A stretch of DNA of 44,522 nt from Lachnospiraceae bacterium (GTDB lineage Bacteria > Bacillota > Clostridia > Lachnospirales > Lachnospiraceae): contig JAGAOO010000073.1 of NCBI GenBank assembly GCA_017623675.1, positions 1 to 44,522 of the forward strand. Reading direction: 5' to 3'. Each line of letters begins with the position of its first letter. The stretch's first letter is position 1. The notes under the pieces were generated by a model. The model ran no database searches. It was not told where the DNA came from and saw only the letters and a program-made list of their open reading frames with translations. Both the position numbers and the translations under genes were made by a program. Below, piece by piece: positions 7,262-42,270 of the stretch.

Positions 7262-7532
7262 AAAATACTAAAGGCCCGTCCCAAAAGGGACGAGCCTAAA
7301 TGTTCGTGGTACCACCCTAATTCCTGTCAAAGACAGGCACTTAAGTAATGTGTAACGCCATCACACGTTCTGTTCTACTGCTGTTTCAAACAGAAAGCTC
7401 CGGTGTGAAACTAAGAACTTGCTCCTTCTTAAGAGGATTCCAGCCGATGACCTCTTTTCTCTGGCAGGGAAACAGATTCCTTCTTGCACCTTCCACGCTG
7501 ATTCATATGCTTTTAAGTTTTGCACTGTTCTT
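7262..7532 (-). promoter_or_regulatory. Phe T-box leader (tRNA-Phe sensing attenuator)
   Basis: The 330-base gap before pheS is a T-box leader. The conserved antiterminator sequence AGGGTGGTACCACGAA is at 7303-7318 on the minus strand, followed by the terminator stem GGCTCGTCCC/GGGACGGGCC (7273-7296) and a T-rich tail. The upstream part can form a long Stem I. I infer a TTC specifier codon at 7407-7409, in AGTTTCACACC, consistent with Phe. Uncharged tRNA-Phe would stabilise the antiterminator and allow pheS-pheT-queA transcription. The T-box core is certain; Stem I pairing and the specifier are inferred. Confidence 0.93.
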
Positions 7533-21655: not shown

Positions 21656-22321
21656 CTATTTTTTATTTCGATGGCTCATATAGCGGTCGTAGCCCTTTTT
21701 GCGTAGCTTGCAGGAAGGGCAGTTGCCGCAGCCATCTCCAACAATACCGTTATAACAGGTCAATGTCTTATCATGTATAACATCTAACACACCCAGCTCG
21801 TCTGCCAATGCCCAGGTTTCCTCTTTATCAATCCACATTAATGGCGTATGAATATCAAATTCATAATCCATTGCCAGATTCAGTGTTGCATTCAAAGATT
21901 TAATAAATACATCTCTACAATCCGGATATCCACTAAAATCACTTTGAGATACTCCGGTTACCAAGTCTGTAATGCCTCGCTGTTTAGCAAAAATAGCAGC
22001 ATAGGTTAAGAATACCATATTTCTTCCGTCTACAAAACTGTTTGGTGTACCGGTTTCCGGTGCATCATGATCCACTTCAATATCACTTCTGGTTAATGAG
22101 TTGGGTGCCAGTTCATTTAATAAACTCAAATCAAATATATGATGTTCTACTCCATATTCTTCCGCTATTGCCTTGGCACATTCCAATTCCTTTTTATGAC
22201 GTTGTCCATAGTCAAAAGAAATAGCAATCACTTCTTCATATCTTGCTTTTGCCCAGAACAAACAGGTGGTACTATCCTGTCCACCACTAAAAATAACAAC
22301 TGCCTGCTTTTTATTCTTCAT
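21656..22321 (-). CDS. queC: 7-cyano-7-deazaguanine (preQ0) synthase
   Basis: QueC makes preQ0 from 7-carboxy-7-deazaguanine, ammonia and ATP. The 221-residue protein has the PP-loop [10 protein letters not shown] (11-20) and a C-terminal zinc site [16 protein letters not shown] (about 192-207). GGAGGAAAG precedes the ATG. It is the last gene of the queD-queE-folE-queC operon, 52 bases after folE. With queA in the phe operon, it shows the cell makes queuosine precursors de novo. Confidence 0.97.
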
Positions 22322-22373
22322 TTTCTTTCCTCCGTTTCTGCGTTTCTCATTTCTATGCTATGCATTTTATTTC

Positions 22374-22952
22374 TTATTCCTGTAACATGACAAAGAATCG
22401 ATTCTGCAGGATACTATCCGTTTCAAATCTTCCCCGGAATGTAGTTGTAACCGTCTTAGCAGAAGGCTTTTTAATTCCTCTGGCAGTCATACAGCTATGA
22501 TTTGCCTTTATCAAAACTGCCACATCCTGAGAATCGGTTGCCATCTGAATAATCTCTGCTATATCCGAACCGATTCTTTCTTGTAACTGTAACCGTTTTG
22601 CAGCCATATCTGCAATACGGGCGATTTTGCTAAGTCCTAATACCCTGTCTTTGGGCAGATATGCTACACTGACTGTCATATCATACATCAATGCCATATG
22701 ATGCTCACAATAACTGAACACTTCTATATCCTTTACCAGCACCATGTCCTCATGCTTCGTAGGTACTTCAAAGGTTTTACCATATAACCCGGCAATTTCC
22801 TGATTGGTATAATTCATTCCTTCAAACACTTCTTCATACATGCGTGCCACCCGCTCCGGTGTTTCCCGCAGTCCTTCCCGATTGGGATCATCGCCCAATG
22901 CTATTAAAATTCCTTTTATATGTTCTTCAATTGCTTTCGTATCAATTGCCAT
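22374..22952 (-). CDS. folE: GTP cyclohydrolase I
   Basis: FolE opens GTP to 7,8-dihydroneopterin triphosphate, the first step of both folate and queuosine synthesis. The 192-residue form contains [17 protein letters not shown], the zinc residues in FSYCEHHMA and the later Cys of [11 protein letters not shown], and ends FFVMLQE. The start at 22952 lies 7 bases after AGGAGG; a longer reading overlapping queE has no FolE homology. Its place between queE and queC suggests dedicated supply for preQ0. Confidence 0.96.
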
Positions 22953-22993
22953 AACCATTCCTCCTATCATATCAATATCGCCCTTCGCTTCCA

Positions 22994-23659
22994 CTAAACG
23001 CCACGTTGGTCCGGTGCCCAGATGAATTTGTGAAGTTGTAGCTGTACATGTACCTGATTCAACCGATGCTCTATCATATATTCTACAATTTCTGCCGGTT
23101 CTATCCGTCCGAATACCGGACTTAGATAGATGCCACACTTCCCCTGTAATTGATATGTTTCTATAATCGTTTTTGCCCTTTCCAAATCCTCCCGATTGGA
23201 TACCACGAATTTGACTGTATCCTTCTCGGTCAGATAGGCATAATTCTCCACCTTCATATTGGCTTCCATACCACTCCCGGGCAACTTATAATCCAAGGTA
23301 AATGCAGGACGCTGTTCCATGTTGGCATATGATGCAATTATGACACTTCCATTGGTTTCCACCTCTACCTGAACCTTAGGCAGACCTCCCAGATAGTCTA
23401 ACAATTCCCGGATTCCCGGTTGTATCAAAGGCTCTCCTCCGGTAACCGTTACATGATGAACCCCTGTGTGTTCAACATAGTCTCCTATCATTTCTTTCGT
23501 CATTCTCTGATAAGAAACTGTCTCTTTATTTGCCCATGTCGTATCACAATAATTACAATTCAGATTACAACCCGCCAGCCGGATAAAGACTGCCAGTTCC
23601 CCGGCCCATTGCCCTTCTCCATTGATACTGACAAAGGTTTCAACGACTCTATATTCCAT
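22994..23659 (-). CDS. queE: 7-carboxy-7-deazaguanine synthase (radical SAM)
   Basis: QueE rearranges 6-carboxytetrahydropterin to 7-carboxy-7-deazaguanine. The 221-residue protein has the radical-SAM cluster motif CNLNCNYCD (Cys31, 35, 38), the SAM-binding [13 protein letters not shown], and [19 protein letters not shown] at its start. AGGAGATAGCA precedes the ATG and the gap to queD is 9 bases. Confidence 0.96.
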
Positions 23660-23668
23660 TGCTATCTC

Positions 23669-24094
23669 CTATTCCACGCTGTAGGCAGCACAATTATTAG
23701 GGGTTTCATAGACAATTACCGACTGTAAGGAAAATCCTTGTTTTGTAAGCTCGTCATAAAACCATTTTGCCAGATTCTCTGCCGTTGGACGAAATGCCAC
23801 TTCAACCAGCCGGAATCCATCTCGTTTCAGACATTGCAGAGTATCCTCGGTCATAGTACCCTTTTCAATAATAAATACATGGTCTAACGCATCCCCCATG
23901 GTTCGTAATGCTTCCTTTAGCTGTGAGAAATCCATTAGCATTCCTCTGGTCTGTGATGTTTCCTGCTCTAAGGTTTCCCCTTTTGCAATCACTTTTACTG
24001 TCCAGCGGTGTCCGTGTATATTTCCACATTTTCCCTGATATCCAGCCAGAAAATGAGCGCTGTCAAAGCTTGTTTGTGTTTCAATCGTATACAT
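23669..24094 (-). CDS. queD: 6-carboxytetrahydropterin synthase
   Basis: QueD converts dihydroneopterin triphosphate to 6-carboxy-tetrahydropterin. The 141-residue protein has zinc histidines in SFDSAHFL and NIHGHRW, the catalytic Cys in GYQGKCGNIHGH, and the C-terminal VVYETPNNCAAY-like pattern (here VIVYETPNNCAAY). AGGAGTTATT precedes the ATG. It is the first gene of the queuosine operon, 50 bases after a strong hairpin terminator. Confidence 0.96.
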   Translation of the reverse strand: MYTIETQTSFDSAHFLAGYQGKCGNIHGHRWTVKVIAKGETLEQETSQTRGMLMDFSQLKEALRTMGDALDHVFIIEKGTMTEDTLQCLKRDGFRLVEVAFRPTAENLAKWFYDELTKQGFSLQSVIVYETPNNCAAYSVE

Positions 24095-24143: not shown

Positions 24144-24173
24144 CAAAAAGCACATGGCAGAACCATGTGCTTT
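24144..24173 (-). terminator. Hairpin terminator between thrC and queD
   Basis: On the minus strand AAAGCACATGG (24163-24173) pairs perfectly with CCATGTGCTTT (24147-24157) around TTCTG, followed by TTTTTGA. It most simply ends the long thrC transcript, about 105 bases past its stop. An attenuator for queD is possible, because I see no good promoter between the hairpin and queD. Confidence 0.85.
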
Positions 24174-24246: not shown

Positions 24247-24285
24247 GTTTCTAAATATAGTTTCTAATATAGTTTCGAATCTATA
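24247..24285. repeat. Three short direct repeats over the thrC stop codon
   Basis: The plus strand shows GTTTCTAAATATA, GTTTCTAATATA and GTTTCGAATCTATA in direct succession (24247-24259, 24260-24271, 24272-24285). The last covers the stop codon of the thrC fusion. Likely local slippage. Confidence 0.5.
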
Positions 24286-26458
24286 ATTTCAAAATACTCT
24301 TTACGGTTGCTTCCATCTCGCTCTTATCACACACAGTATCGTGAAGCACCGGTGCAGAACGGATATCTTCAATCGCCTGTGGGATTGCAACACCGGAAAT
24401 CTTGTTCAACTCATCAATCAACTCAAAATCCGTCTTGCTGTCATAGGTATGATCAATGGCATTCATCACGCTTCTTGTAAACTTATATGGACTTGCAGTA
24501 GAAGCAATGACAGTTGGTGTTGTATCCCCGGTTTCAGCAACATACTTATCATAAACCGTTGCCGCAACTGCTGTATGAGTATCCATAATATACTTATCTT
24601 CTTCATAAACCTTCTTAATGGTTTCTGCAGTTTCCTCTTCACTTGCATATCCACCGAAGAATTCTGATAATTTCTCCTTCATTTCAGGAGTAATTACATA
24701 CTTGCCTTCCGTATTCAATGCCTTCATTAATTCTGCATTCTTCTCAGCATTATTTCCTGCAATCTTATAGATTAAACGCTCTAAATTGCTGGAAATCAAA
24801 ATATCCATAGATGGTGAGCTTGTTAAGATAAATTCCCGATTCTTATCATATTCACCGGTCCGGAAGAAATCATACAATACCTTGTTTTCATTGGAAGCAC
24901 AGATGAACTTGGCAATTGGCAAGCCCATTTCCTTTGCATAGTAAGCTGCCAGAATATTACCAAAATTACCGGTTGGAACAACAACATTTATCTTATCTCC
25001 AGCCTTGATTGTACCATCCGCTATCAGTCTGCTGTATGCATATACATAGTAAACCATCTGTGGAACCAGACGTCCAATGTTAATTGAGTTGGCAGAGGAG
25101 AACTGCATATTGGCAGCGTCCATTTCTTTTGCTAATTCCTTATCATTGAACATATTTTTTACACCGGTCTGTGCATCATCGAAGTTTCCAATAATACCAA
25201 CCACAGAAGTATTGGCTCCCCTCTGGGTTACCATCTGCTTTTCCTGAATTGGGCTGACACCATGCTTTGGATAGAATACGATAATCTTAGTCCCCGGTAC
25301 ATCTGCAAAACCAGCTAAAGCTGCCTTACCGGTATCCCCGGAAGTTGCAGTCAGAATTACAATATCATTCTTTACCTGATTCTTCTTTGCTGAGGTTGTT
25401 AATAAATATGGCAGAATCGATAATGCCATATCTTTAAATGCTATGGTAGAACCATGGAATAACTCTAAGTAATTGGCACCATGGGCTTTCTTCAATGGTG
25501 CGATTTCCGGCGTATCGAATTTGGAATCATATGCACTGTTAATACAATACTTTAATTCTTCTTCTGTAAAATCCGTAAACATACGACACATTACTTCATA
25601 TGCCACTTCCTGATAGGACATGTTCGCCAAAGTCTCCAGTGAAATATCCAATGCCGGAATGGTATTCGGAACGAATAATCCACCATTTTCTGCTAATCCT
25701 TTCAAAATTGCCTGTGATGCTGTAGCTGTTTCTGCAGCATTTCTGGTACTTGAGTATATTACTTCCATTTTTTCACCATTTCCTTTCGTTTTTTCCAATG
25801 CCTTATTATACTTGTTCTCCTTTGCGGTTGCAACTTCTTTTTTTACTTCAATTGCCGTTTCCACAACCTCATCCTTCAGATTTACAACTGCCGCTTTTAC
25901 ATCTTCTGTCACGGCTTTGGCACCATGCATCCGTACTGCCTGCCATATTGCAGTAATAACATCAATGCCACCGCTTAGCAAAAGAGAGGCTCCAATCACC
26001 CGAAGCATATTCGTTGTTTTTTCAAACGGATAAAATAAAATCACAAATCCCAGTGCCAGACTTCCCAATGCCACCAGAAATACCGGAGCCCAGAAAACCT
26101 GCTTCATCCGTCGCATATCCAGCGCATTCTGAAATGTTATCAAACCACTGATTAGAACCATAAAGCCCATAACTGCCGGAAGCCACGGATATAATACCTT
26201 CGCATTAATCATCAGATAAATACCTGCTGTTGCAGCAACAACACCGGCTACCAAATCATAGCTTTCATTCTCAGCCGTAACATCCCTGCCAATATAATAC
26301 ATGATTAAAACTACACCTGTGACGATTAACAGCACGGAAAAAATATAGCTGATTGCCAATAACGGTGCATCTGACACTACCAAAAGAATCAGACCAATCA
26401 ATACATATATAATTGAAAAAACCAATATACTTCCCCGCATTCCGCGAAATAGTTTCAT
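24281..26458 (-). CDS. thrC: DUF308/HdeD-type membrane domain joined in frame to threonine synthase
   Basis: One uninterrupted 725-residue frame. Residues 1 to about 180 hold six or so hydrophobic helices (SILVFSIIYVLIGLILLVV, LLAISYIFSVLLIVTGVVLI, ...) like HdeD/DUF308 proteins. A charged amphipathic linker follows (DVKAAVVNLKDEVVETAIEV...). From MEVIYSSTRNAAETATASQA onward (ATG at 25768) is a complete 495-residue threonine synthase with the PLP lysine in HGSTIAFKDMALS and the loop ATSGDTGKAA. It converts O-phosphohomoserine to threonine. The upstream start (26458) has GAGAGGAG 7 bases before; the internal thrC ATG has a weaker AAAGGA about 12 bases before. Either a real membrane-tethered fusion or two products from one frame. 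It follows map by 16 bases. Confidence 0.88.
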   Translation of the reverse strand: MKLFRGMRGSILVFSIIYVLIGLILLVVSDAPLLAISYIFSVLLIVTGVVLIMYYIGRDVTAENESYDLVAGVVAATAGIYLMINAKVLYPWLPAVMGFMVLISGLITFQNALDMRRMKQVFWAPVFLVALGSLALGFVILFYPFEKTTNMLRVIGASLLLSGGIDVITAIWQAVRMHGAKAVTEDVKAAVVNLKDEVVETAIEVKKEVATAKENKYNKALEKTKGNGEKMEVIYSSTRNAAETATASQAILKGLAENGGLFVPNTIPALDISLETLANMSYQEVAYEVMCRMFTDFTEEELKYCINSAYDSKFDTPEIAPLKKAHGANYLELFHGSTIAFKDMALSILPYLLTTSAKKNQVKNDIVILTATSGDTGKAALAGFADVPGTKIIVFYPKHGVSPIQEKQMVTQRGANTSVVGIIGNFDDAQTGVKNMFNDKELAKEMDAANMQFSSANSINIGRLVPQMVYYVYAYSRLIADGTIKAGDKINVVVPTGNFGNILAAYYAKEMGLPIAKFICASNENKVLYDFFRTGEYDKNREFILTSSPSMDILISSNLERLIYKIAGNNAEKNAELMKALNTEGKYVITPEMKEKLSEFFGGYASEEETAETIKKVYEEDKYIMDTHTAVAATVYDKYVAETGDTTPTVIASTASPYKFTRSVMNAIDHTYDSKTDFELIDELNKISGVAIPQAIEDIRSAPVLHDTVCDKSEMEATVKSILKL

Positions 26459-26474
26459 CTTCTGTCTCCTCTCG

Positions 26475-27353
26475 TTATCTTGATAAGATTTCAGCACCGG
26501 TCTGAGTAATCAGAATTGTATATTCCCATTGTGCCGATGGCATTCCATCTTCTGTTCGAACTGTCCAGCCATCGTCTTCATCCTGCCACACATCTGCTTT
26601 ACCCATATTCACCATTGGCTCAATGGTAAATGTCATTCCCGGTACTAAAAGATAATCACCACCCGGTATTCCAATATGACTGACCCAAGGGTCTTCATGG
26701 AATTCAACTCCGACTCCATGTCCGCCAATTTCCCGTACTACACTATAACCATTCTCTTTTGCATGCCGGTTAATTGCTACTCCTACATCCCCTAAAAATG
26801 TCCATGGTTTTGCAATATTGTAACCAATGTCCAGACATTCTTTTGCAACCTCAACCAACTTCTGCTTTTCAGGGCTAACCTCCCCAATGCAGTACATTCT
26901 GGATGCATCCCCATAATATCCGTTGTATATGGTAGTACAATCCACATTAATTATATCACCGGATTTTAGTATTCGGTTGTCATCCGGAATTCCATGACAT
27001 ACAACTTCATCAATGGAAGTACATACACTTTTCGGATATCCTTTATAATTCAAGCAAGCCGGAATACCACCAAGTTTTAAAGTATATTCGTGTATCAGCC
27101 GGTCTAATTCTCCGGTGGAAATACCTTCTTTTACATATGGTTCAATATAATCCAAAACCATTGTATTTACCTCGCCGGCTTTCCGAATTCCATCAATCTG
27201 TTCCGGTGTCTTAATCATAGAATGTGTCGGTACCTTTGCACCCTTCAACTGAAATGCATTGATTTTTTCATCCATCTGCATATGGCAAGCCTTATACTTT
27301 CTTCCACTTCCACACCAGCATGGATCATTTCTGCCCATTTTCATTTCTGTCAC
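26475..27353 (-). CDS. map: Type I methionine aminopeptidase with SEC-C zinc motif
   Basis: Removes the initiator methionine from nascent proteins. The N-terminal SEC-C zinc motif is complete (GRNDPCWCGSGRKYKACH, Cys12, Cys14, Cys23, His24), as in many clostridial Map proteins. The peptidase domain follows with metal ligands in INVDCTTIYNGYYGDASRM, the HGVG histidine in GGHGVGVEFHE and the C-terminal TIEPMVNMG and QWEYTILIT. 292 residues if GTG at 27353 is used; AAGGA is 5 bases before it, while the ATG at 27344 is too far from any site. It lies between a zinc-ribbon protein and the thrC fusion. Confidence 0.94.
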   Translation of the reverse strand: MTEMKMGRNDPCWCGSGRKYKACHMQMDEKINAFQLKGAKVPTHSMIKTPEQIDGIRKAGEVNTMVLDYIEPYVKEGISTGELDRLIHEYTLKLGGIPACLNYKGYPKSVCTSIDEVVCHGIPDDNRILKSGDIINVDCTTIYNGYYGDASRMYCIGEVSPEKQKLVEVAKECLDIGYNIAKPWTFLGDVGVAINRHAKENGYSVVREIGGHGVGVEFHEDPWVSHIGIPGGDYLLVPGMTFTIEPMVNMGKADVWQDEDDGWTVRTEDGMPSAQWEYTILITQTGAEILSR

Positions 27354-41655: not shown

Positions 41656-42270
41656 TTATTCTTCTTTATTCTTTTCTATATCCTTTTCATCCAGTAAACC
41701 GAATCGGTCTTCCAATTTCTTTTTCTTAGCCCTGACTCGAACCGTATAAGCTGTAATCCAGATATTAACTAATCCATCTACCATAAAGGAGATAGCCAAA
41801 AAAACAAACTGGGATAATGGCTCTGCATATTGTGACACCAATGCCATAATGCCAACTCCTGCCAGTGCAATTGCTGTCGCCAATACTATCATCCACTTGC
41901 GAATCCCGAATTTCTTCGCATCAAAGGCAGTCTGCATCTTTAATAATCCATCAAAGATAACATAGATTCCAAATAATTTTGATATTGCCTGAGGATCCTT
42001 CCAACCAATGCACCAAAAAAGTATTCCAACAAAAATCAGATACAACCCGGACGCAAAATCAAATTGAAATGCTAATCGGTACAAATCATTGGAAAAGTAG
42101 CCTAAAATCTTCGCTCCTCCCACTAAAATACATAATACACTAATCAAAATTACCTCTTGGGTAGTGGTTAATCCGGTAAACAATAGCAGGAACAAACCTA
42201 CAGCAACCATTAATGAATGAATTATTATATTGATAATTTTTGCCTGTTTTACAATATCGACTTTTTTCAT
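41656..42270 (-). CDS. DUF308/HdeD-family membrane protein
   Basis: A 204-residue protein with six hydrophobic helices, for example IINIIIHSLMVAVGLFLLLF and LYLIFVGILFWCIGW, and a charged C-terminal tail (KKKKLEDRFGLLDEKDIEKN). It resembles the HdeD family, implicated in acid stress in E. coli but of unknown role in Clostridia. AAGGGA is 8 bases before the ATG. A related domain is fused to threonine synthase at 24281-26458, so the genome has at least two paralogs. Confidence 0.82.
   Translation of the reverse strand: MKKVDIVKQAKIINIIIHSLMVAVGLFLLLFTGLTTTQEVILISVLCILVGGAKILGYFSNDLYRLAFQFDFASGLYLIFVGILFWCIGWKDPQAISKLFGIYVIFDGLLKMQTAFDAKKFGIRKWMIVLATAIALAGVGIMALVSQYAEPLSQFVFLAISFMVDGLVNIWITAYTVRVRAKKKKLEDRFGLLDEKDIEKNKEE

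Follow-up and report, generated by a model that had tools for sequence, protein, structure and literature searches.

A DUF308 membrane domain fused in frame to threonine synthase, with a conserved promoter-like element inside the linker

The window analysed here, 44,522 nt of contig JAGAOO010000073.1 (assembly GCA_017623675.1, a Lachnospiraceae bacterium), carries on its reverse strand a single reading frame in which a DUF308 membrane domain and a charged linker precede a complete threonine synthase (ThrC; Table 1). The frame runs open from ATG to TAG over 725 codons, bearing out the in-frame order given in the initial annotation, and recurs in most genomes of the genus. Behind thrC lie genes of the queD-queE-folE-queC type (21656-24094, reverse strand; named from sequence appearance); a queD-like gene belongs to the thrC locus in 8/8 genomes of the genus, and the order thrC-queD-queE is also present in genomes G194 and G166. 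Elsewhere in the window, a T-box leader (7283-7504, reverse strand; Rfam RF00230, 108.1 bits) precedes two ORFs (339 and 811 aa) that, judged by size, may be pheS-pheT.

Table 1 Features of the fused locus and related elements (coordinates in the window)
Feature	Position	Strand	Remarks
Fused ORF, DUF308-linker-threonine synthase	24281..26458	-	725 aa plus TAG stop, uninterrupted from ATG
DUF308 membrane domain, aa 1-178, six helices (predicted)	25925..26458	-	Pfam PF03729; AlphaFold2 model; pN/pS 0.19
Charged linker, aa 179-230, mostly helical by prediction	25769..25924	-	Free of stops and indels in six species
Complete threonine synthase, aa 231-725 (495 aa)	24281..25768	-	Own ATG at 25768; TIGR00260; pN/pS 0.08
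Shine-Dalgarno-type site of upstream (fusion) start	26466..26472	-	Duplex energy -9.1 kcal/mol
Internal ribosome-binding site AAAGGA	25781..25786	-	12 nt before ATG 25768
Putative -35 box TTGCAA of internal thrC promoter	25828..25833	-	Within 17-nt run invariant in six species
Putative -10 box TATAAT	25805..25810	-	17 nt past -35 box; in the ORF's longest invariant run (23 nt); kept in G004
map-like gene (methionine aminopeptidase; named from sequence alone)	26475..27353	-	Ends 16 nt before fusion start
Terminator-like hairpin after thrC	24147..24173	-	12 pairs
Stand-alone DUF308 paralogue	41656..42270	-	42.1 bits; 24% identical to fused domain

The fused protein scores 52.2 bits for DUF308 (PF03729, gathering cut-off 25) in three stretches, the best spanning residues 15-83, and residues 1-230 alone reach 58.9 bits against the same cut-off. 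These are followed by Thr_synth_N (235-310), PALP (332-641) and THR4_C (629-689), and the thrC model TIGR00260 gives 240.7 bits (curated cut-off 167.1), bearing out the complete threonine synthase first annotated here. The solved structure nearest by sequence is the threonine synthase 8g1y, which matches residues 230-723; a profile of residues 1-230 found no match among solved chains. Within HGSTIAFKDMA, residues F341, K342 and D343 are invariant across 23 aligned sequences, and K342 is presumably the catalytic lysine. The fused gene is the sole thrC-like match in its genome (G000, 93.8% complete), where a homoserine dehydrogenase lies beside a proposed homoserine kinase on another contig (G000:C19:80008-82058; TIGR02535, 493.9 bits, above cut-off), and a classical thrB is represented by only a sub-threshold match located elsewhere.

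DUF308 domains are expected to form six membrane helices. For residues 1-230, AlphaFold2 (alignment of 39 sequences; mean pLDDT 80.6, pTM 0.62) predicts six membrane-type helices at 4-27, 33-57, 68-84, 86-117, 123-142 and 148-178, not all of which are resolved by a plain hydropathy plot, where some are merged or missed. The earlier description as a six-helix HdeD-like domain is therefore upheld for the DUF308 family and the predicted helix number but not for HdeD proper, as the HdeD equivalog model NF007577 yields 15.8 bits against a cut-off of 189. The linker, described as long and charged, is modelled as a single 47-residue helix (180-226), and 39% of residues 177-230 are charged. With helix bounds set by hand, Lys plus Arg counts are 3, 1, 3 and 4 in loops 0, 2, 4 and 6, and 0, 0 and 1 in loops 1, 3 and 5. 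This bias fits a topology with both ends inside, and ThrC would therefore face the cytosol.

The initial annotation had also pointed to a stand-alone DUF308 protein in the window, which Pfam supports (Table 1). At 24% identity, it is ruled out as the direct donor of the fused domain. The DUF308/HdeD-like proteins (PF03729) share the same Pfam domain, and the fused copy is 17-32% identical to stand-alone members. Inspected by eye, 36 stand-alone ORFs end in short, unlike charged tails, whereas the fused domain has no stop of its own; nothing in these tails resembles the linker, so that a DUF308 tail was rejected as its source. The alignment of stand-alone relatives used 33 of the 36 ORFs, and one mixing DUF308 and ThrC relatives was discarded since its short rows looked misplaced.

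We found the same domain order, for which a database search had been proposed, in 6/8 genomes of the genus, the window's own included, and in no genome outside the genus among those searched. The six proteins are 724-725 aa long and 82-100% identical, with 230 residues ahead of the internal Met in every case, and each of the eight genomes holds exactly one thrC-like match. The carriers are few, all of them uncultured bacteria, and several come from animal guts. It could be argued that a missing stop codon or an indel, arising in assembly or sequencing, has merely joined two separate genes, all genomes of the genus being in many contigs and five of them metagenome assemblies. However, the same frame of near-constant length is shared by six genomes at the identities given above, from five differently named sources, and none of the six has a stop or an indel in the linker. 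We reject an artefact as extremely improbable and conclude that the fusion of DUF308 domain, linker and threonine synthase is real.

When 299 genomes of the family were searched (290 with a match), only two of the matches listed, both from the genus, started at residue 1. With residues 1-230 as query, 99/299 family genomes matched at E <= 1e-8; in the 97 of these outside the genus, the DUF308 matches show 20-32% identity and occupy frames of 166-428 aa, which are too short to include ThrC. Across 391 class genomes, the window's own was the only one to match at a strict E <= 1e-26. Fusions whose membrane part has diverged very far may exist elsewhere. Long frames near thrC in G020, G148, G166, G296 and G065 contain no DUF308 fusion according to their ORF listing; in G065, thrC is slightly extended at the N-terminus (556-aa ORF). 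In G166, another kind of membrane-protein-like ORF, whose tail is rich in lysine and glutamate (L025 2995-4431, reverse strand), lies 21 nt upstream of thrC, from which stop codons separate it. This arrangement possibly pictures the state before fusion in another genus.

The two members of the genus without the full fusion differ from each other. G007 has a plain thrC directly after map. G004 has no membrane domain, yet a 548-aa ORF (L009 1498-3144, reverse strand) starts inside the linker behind GGAGGA, a strong ribosome site, and runs in frame into ThrC, giving an extension of ~53 residues; the linker-ThrC frame stays open across a 27-nt length difference near its end. ThrC trees were built from 15 (protein) and 12 (DNA) of 36 loci, with L026 left out for want of a matching start motif. 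In the protein tree, the six fused species group with G007 (bootstrap 94, SH-aLRT 90), which lies inside this group (89/88); in the DNA tree, G007 joins G006, G003 and G002 (80/94). As G007 branches among the fused species in both trees, it has probably lost the fusion, most likely by loss of membrane part and linker together. In the protein tree, G004 branches outside all other members of the genus (99/95), and in the DNA tree it groups with G194 and G009, which belong to other genera (76/74); its membrane part may have been lost or may never have been present.

Two translation starts are discernible at the locus. The end of map is followed by the fusion start in each of the six fused species and by thrC in G004 and G007, and the duplex of the upstream ribosome site with the 16S tail ranges from -9.1 to -11.6 kcal/mol in the fused species. 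With no stop between the parts, a ribosome that starts there and finishes makes the tethered enzyme. The retained thrC start that the initial annotation had noted, with a ribosome site about 12 bases before it, is present as AAAGGA and the ATG at 25768, and AAAGGA precedes the ThrC ATG in 8/8 genomes of the genus, at 12 nt in the six fused genomes and G004 and at 10 nt in G007. A same-frame internal start with a conserved ribosome site, as expected of a nested gene, is thus found in the six fused genomes, and the ATG with AAAGGA also in G004 and G007. Internal duplex energies lie between -5.9 and -10.4 kcal/mol: AAAGGA alone gives -5.9, and pairing beyond it lowers the value to -10.4 in G000, G005 and G006. 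In G000 and G005, the internal site (-10.4) compares with -9.1 and -10.2 upstream, respectively, so that the upstream site does not rank first.

Both halves of the frame are under constraint. Across the six species, pN/pS is 0.19 in the membrane part, 0.35 in the first half of the linker and 0.08 in ThrC, with a median dS of 1.4-1.7 in all three, that is, near saturation. Low pN/pS at nearly saturated synonymous sites makes both halves look like working proteins, and purifying selection is acting on each of them. The last 26 codons of the linker (205-230) have a median dS of 0.24. Among amino-acid-invariant degenerate codons, 17/19 are identical in the six species there, against 126/513 over the ORF, a level reached in 0/5000 permutations. 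Third positions are invariant at 19/26 of these codons, compared with 31/178 in the membrane part, 1/26 in the first half of the linker and 112/494 in ThrC. All of these counts rest on six species, a small number.

The conserved stretch contains a promoter-like element that was absent from the initial annotation and is new here. The whole ORF has just two invariant DNA runs of at least 15 nt (17 and 23 nt), and these hold TTGCAA and TATAAT, respectively. The 17-nt spacer separating the hexamers has 9 invariant and 8 variable bases. A further AAAGGA inside the spacer is not the one taken as ribosome site. TTGCAA-N17-TATAAT has 10/12 consensus matches (4/6 in the -35 box) and is among the three best sites of a 7-kb scan, but this region holds 25 promoter-like sites against 20.8 +/- 4.7 (s.d.) in shuffled sequence, a total so near the shuffled mean that the promoter match by itself is weak. 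In a test of 34/36 loci (all but L026 and L027, where the start motif was not matched) with 200 mononucleotide shuffles each, the sigma-70-like site had a shuffle fraction of 0.00-0.01 in the six fused species and 0.04 in G004, which keeps TTGCAG-N17-TATAAT together with AAAGGA-12-ATG. Among 26 loci of other genera, 12 have such a site within 120 nt before thrC at a fraction <= 0.05; no significant site was found in the other 14 or in G007 (0.46). RNA structure as the cause of the conservation was not supported (z -0.23), and no known RNA family matched there in Rfam.

One might suppose that only the tethered form is made, and that the linker DNA is frozen by some other DNA signal, for instance a regulator site, or by a constraint on the protein. 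The end of the linker is indeed well conserved as protein too, the upstream ribosome site is strong, and conservation reaches beyond the -10 box, where 17/19 of the following bases are invariant; this exceeds the need of a plain promoter, and another overlapping signal is possible. Against this supposition, which we regard as improbable, the freezing sits at synonymous positions and hence concerns the nucleic acid (DNA or RNA), two conserved blocks around a less constrained 17-nt spacer match the layout of a sigma-70 promoter, and the internal ATG with AAAGGA is kept in both species that have no membrane part. The simplest reading of these patterns is that thrC retained its own promoter when the upstream region turned coding. 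The possibility of dual products, raised initially, is well supported by comparison. The second product would probably depend on a promoter of its own within the linker and not merely on a weak internal ribosome site.

It may equally be asked whether the tethered product has any role, that is, whether only soluble ThrC matters and the run-on frame is accidental, the fused product being cut in the linker or degraded while DUF308 and ThrC act separately. The strongly kept internal promoter-like element and ribosome site, the plain thrC of G007 and the length and charge of the linker would all suit this account. We nevertheless consider it unlikely, because six diverged lineages have acquired neither stop nor frameshift. 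In neutral simulations (4-fold-site tree of total length 3.37, 2000 runs each, indels ignored), linker codons 179-204 stayed free of stops in all six with a chance of 0.002-0.0025; for the entire linker, its invariant end being kept constant, the chance was 0.0005-0.002. By itself, the simulation does not tell whether selection favoured the fusion or a longer DUF308 tail, and conservation in the linker's first half may merely be that of such a tail. G004 points to selection for the fusion, as it keeps the linker-ThrC frame open, through an in-frame length difference and behind a strong ribosome site, without DUF308.

We thus favour, as probable on present genomic evidence, an arrangement in which thrC kept its promoter within the fused frame, so that the map transcript would yield tethered ThrC and the internal promoter free ThrC. 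In this scheme, a DUF308 membrane-protein gene and thrC became one reading frame in the genus. An upstream, map-linked transcript with a strong ribosome site would give the 725-aa protein, with six membrane helices, both ends in the cytosol and a helical linker carrying a threonine synthase that faces the cytosol. Independently, the old thrC promoter and ribosome site within the linker codons would yield the ordinary 495-aa soluble enzyme. One locus could in this way supply the same enzyme in two places, at a ratio set by two promoters. Tethering might place the enzyme near a transporter, might allow regulation through DUF308, or might be a merely tolerated attachment. HdeD has been linked to acid resistance, and we know of no established biochemistry for DUF308. 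More speculatively, and with considerable doubt, promoter choice could switch the enzyme between membrane-bound and free forms, with DUF308 sensing or responding to a membrane or acid signal and controlling threonine synthesis or placing it at the membrane. If true, such a switch would provide the first biochemical handle on the role of DUF308.

Threonine synthase is regarded as a soluble enzyme with a housekeeping role. A sole detected copy that is fused to a polytopic domain and keeps its old start and a promoter-like element would exemplify how an enzyme gains a location by fusion while its original product is retained. The fusion also ties an unexplained domain to a measurable enzyme, and an annotation that lists the 725-aa protein alone would miss the second product. 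In one open-access library we found no literature joining 'threonine synthase' and 'DUF308', and no title among the matches listed concerned a membrane threonine synthase; PMC4431682 proved a false hit, the part available concerning DUF3089.

Compared with the threonine synthases of TIGR00260 and the structures 8g1y and 1kl7, the fused protein likewise holds the entire enzyme, from Thr_synth_N through PALP to the C-terminal domain, but has 230 extra N-terminal residues comprising six predicted helices and the linker. A parallel in organization is offered by in-frame nested genes and N-terminal proteoform pairs: the available part of a Salmonella survey (PMC11005335) describes seven candidate genes with two in-frame starts whose products are possibly differently located. 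As far as that part goes, these pairs share with our locus one stop, two starts and differing predicted locations; SpaO and the two-polypeptide endolysins appear to be further pairs of this kind. In contrast to these, the long form here came about when an entire polytopic membrane protein was fused on, and a promoter within the fused coding sequence seems to belong to the short form.
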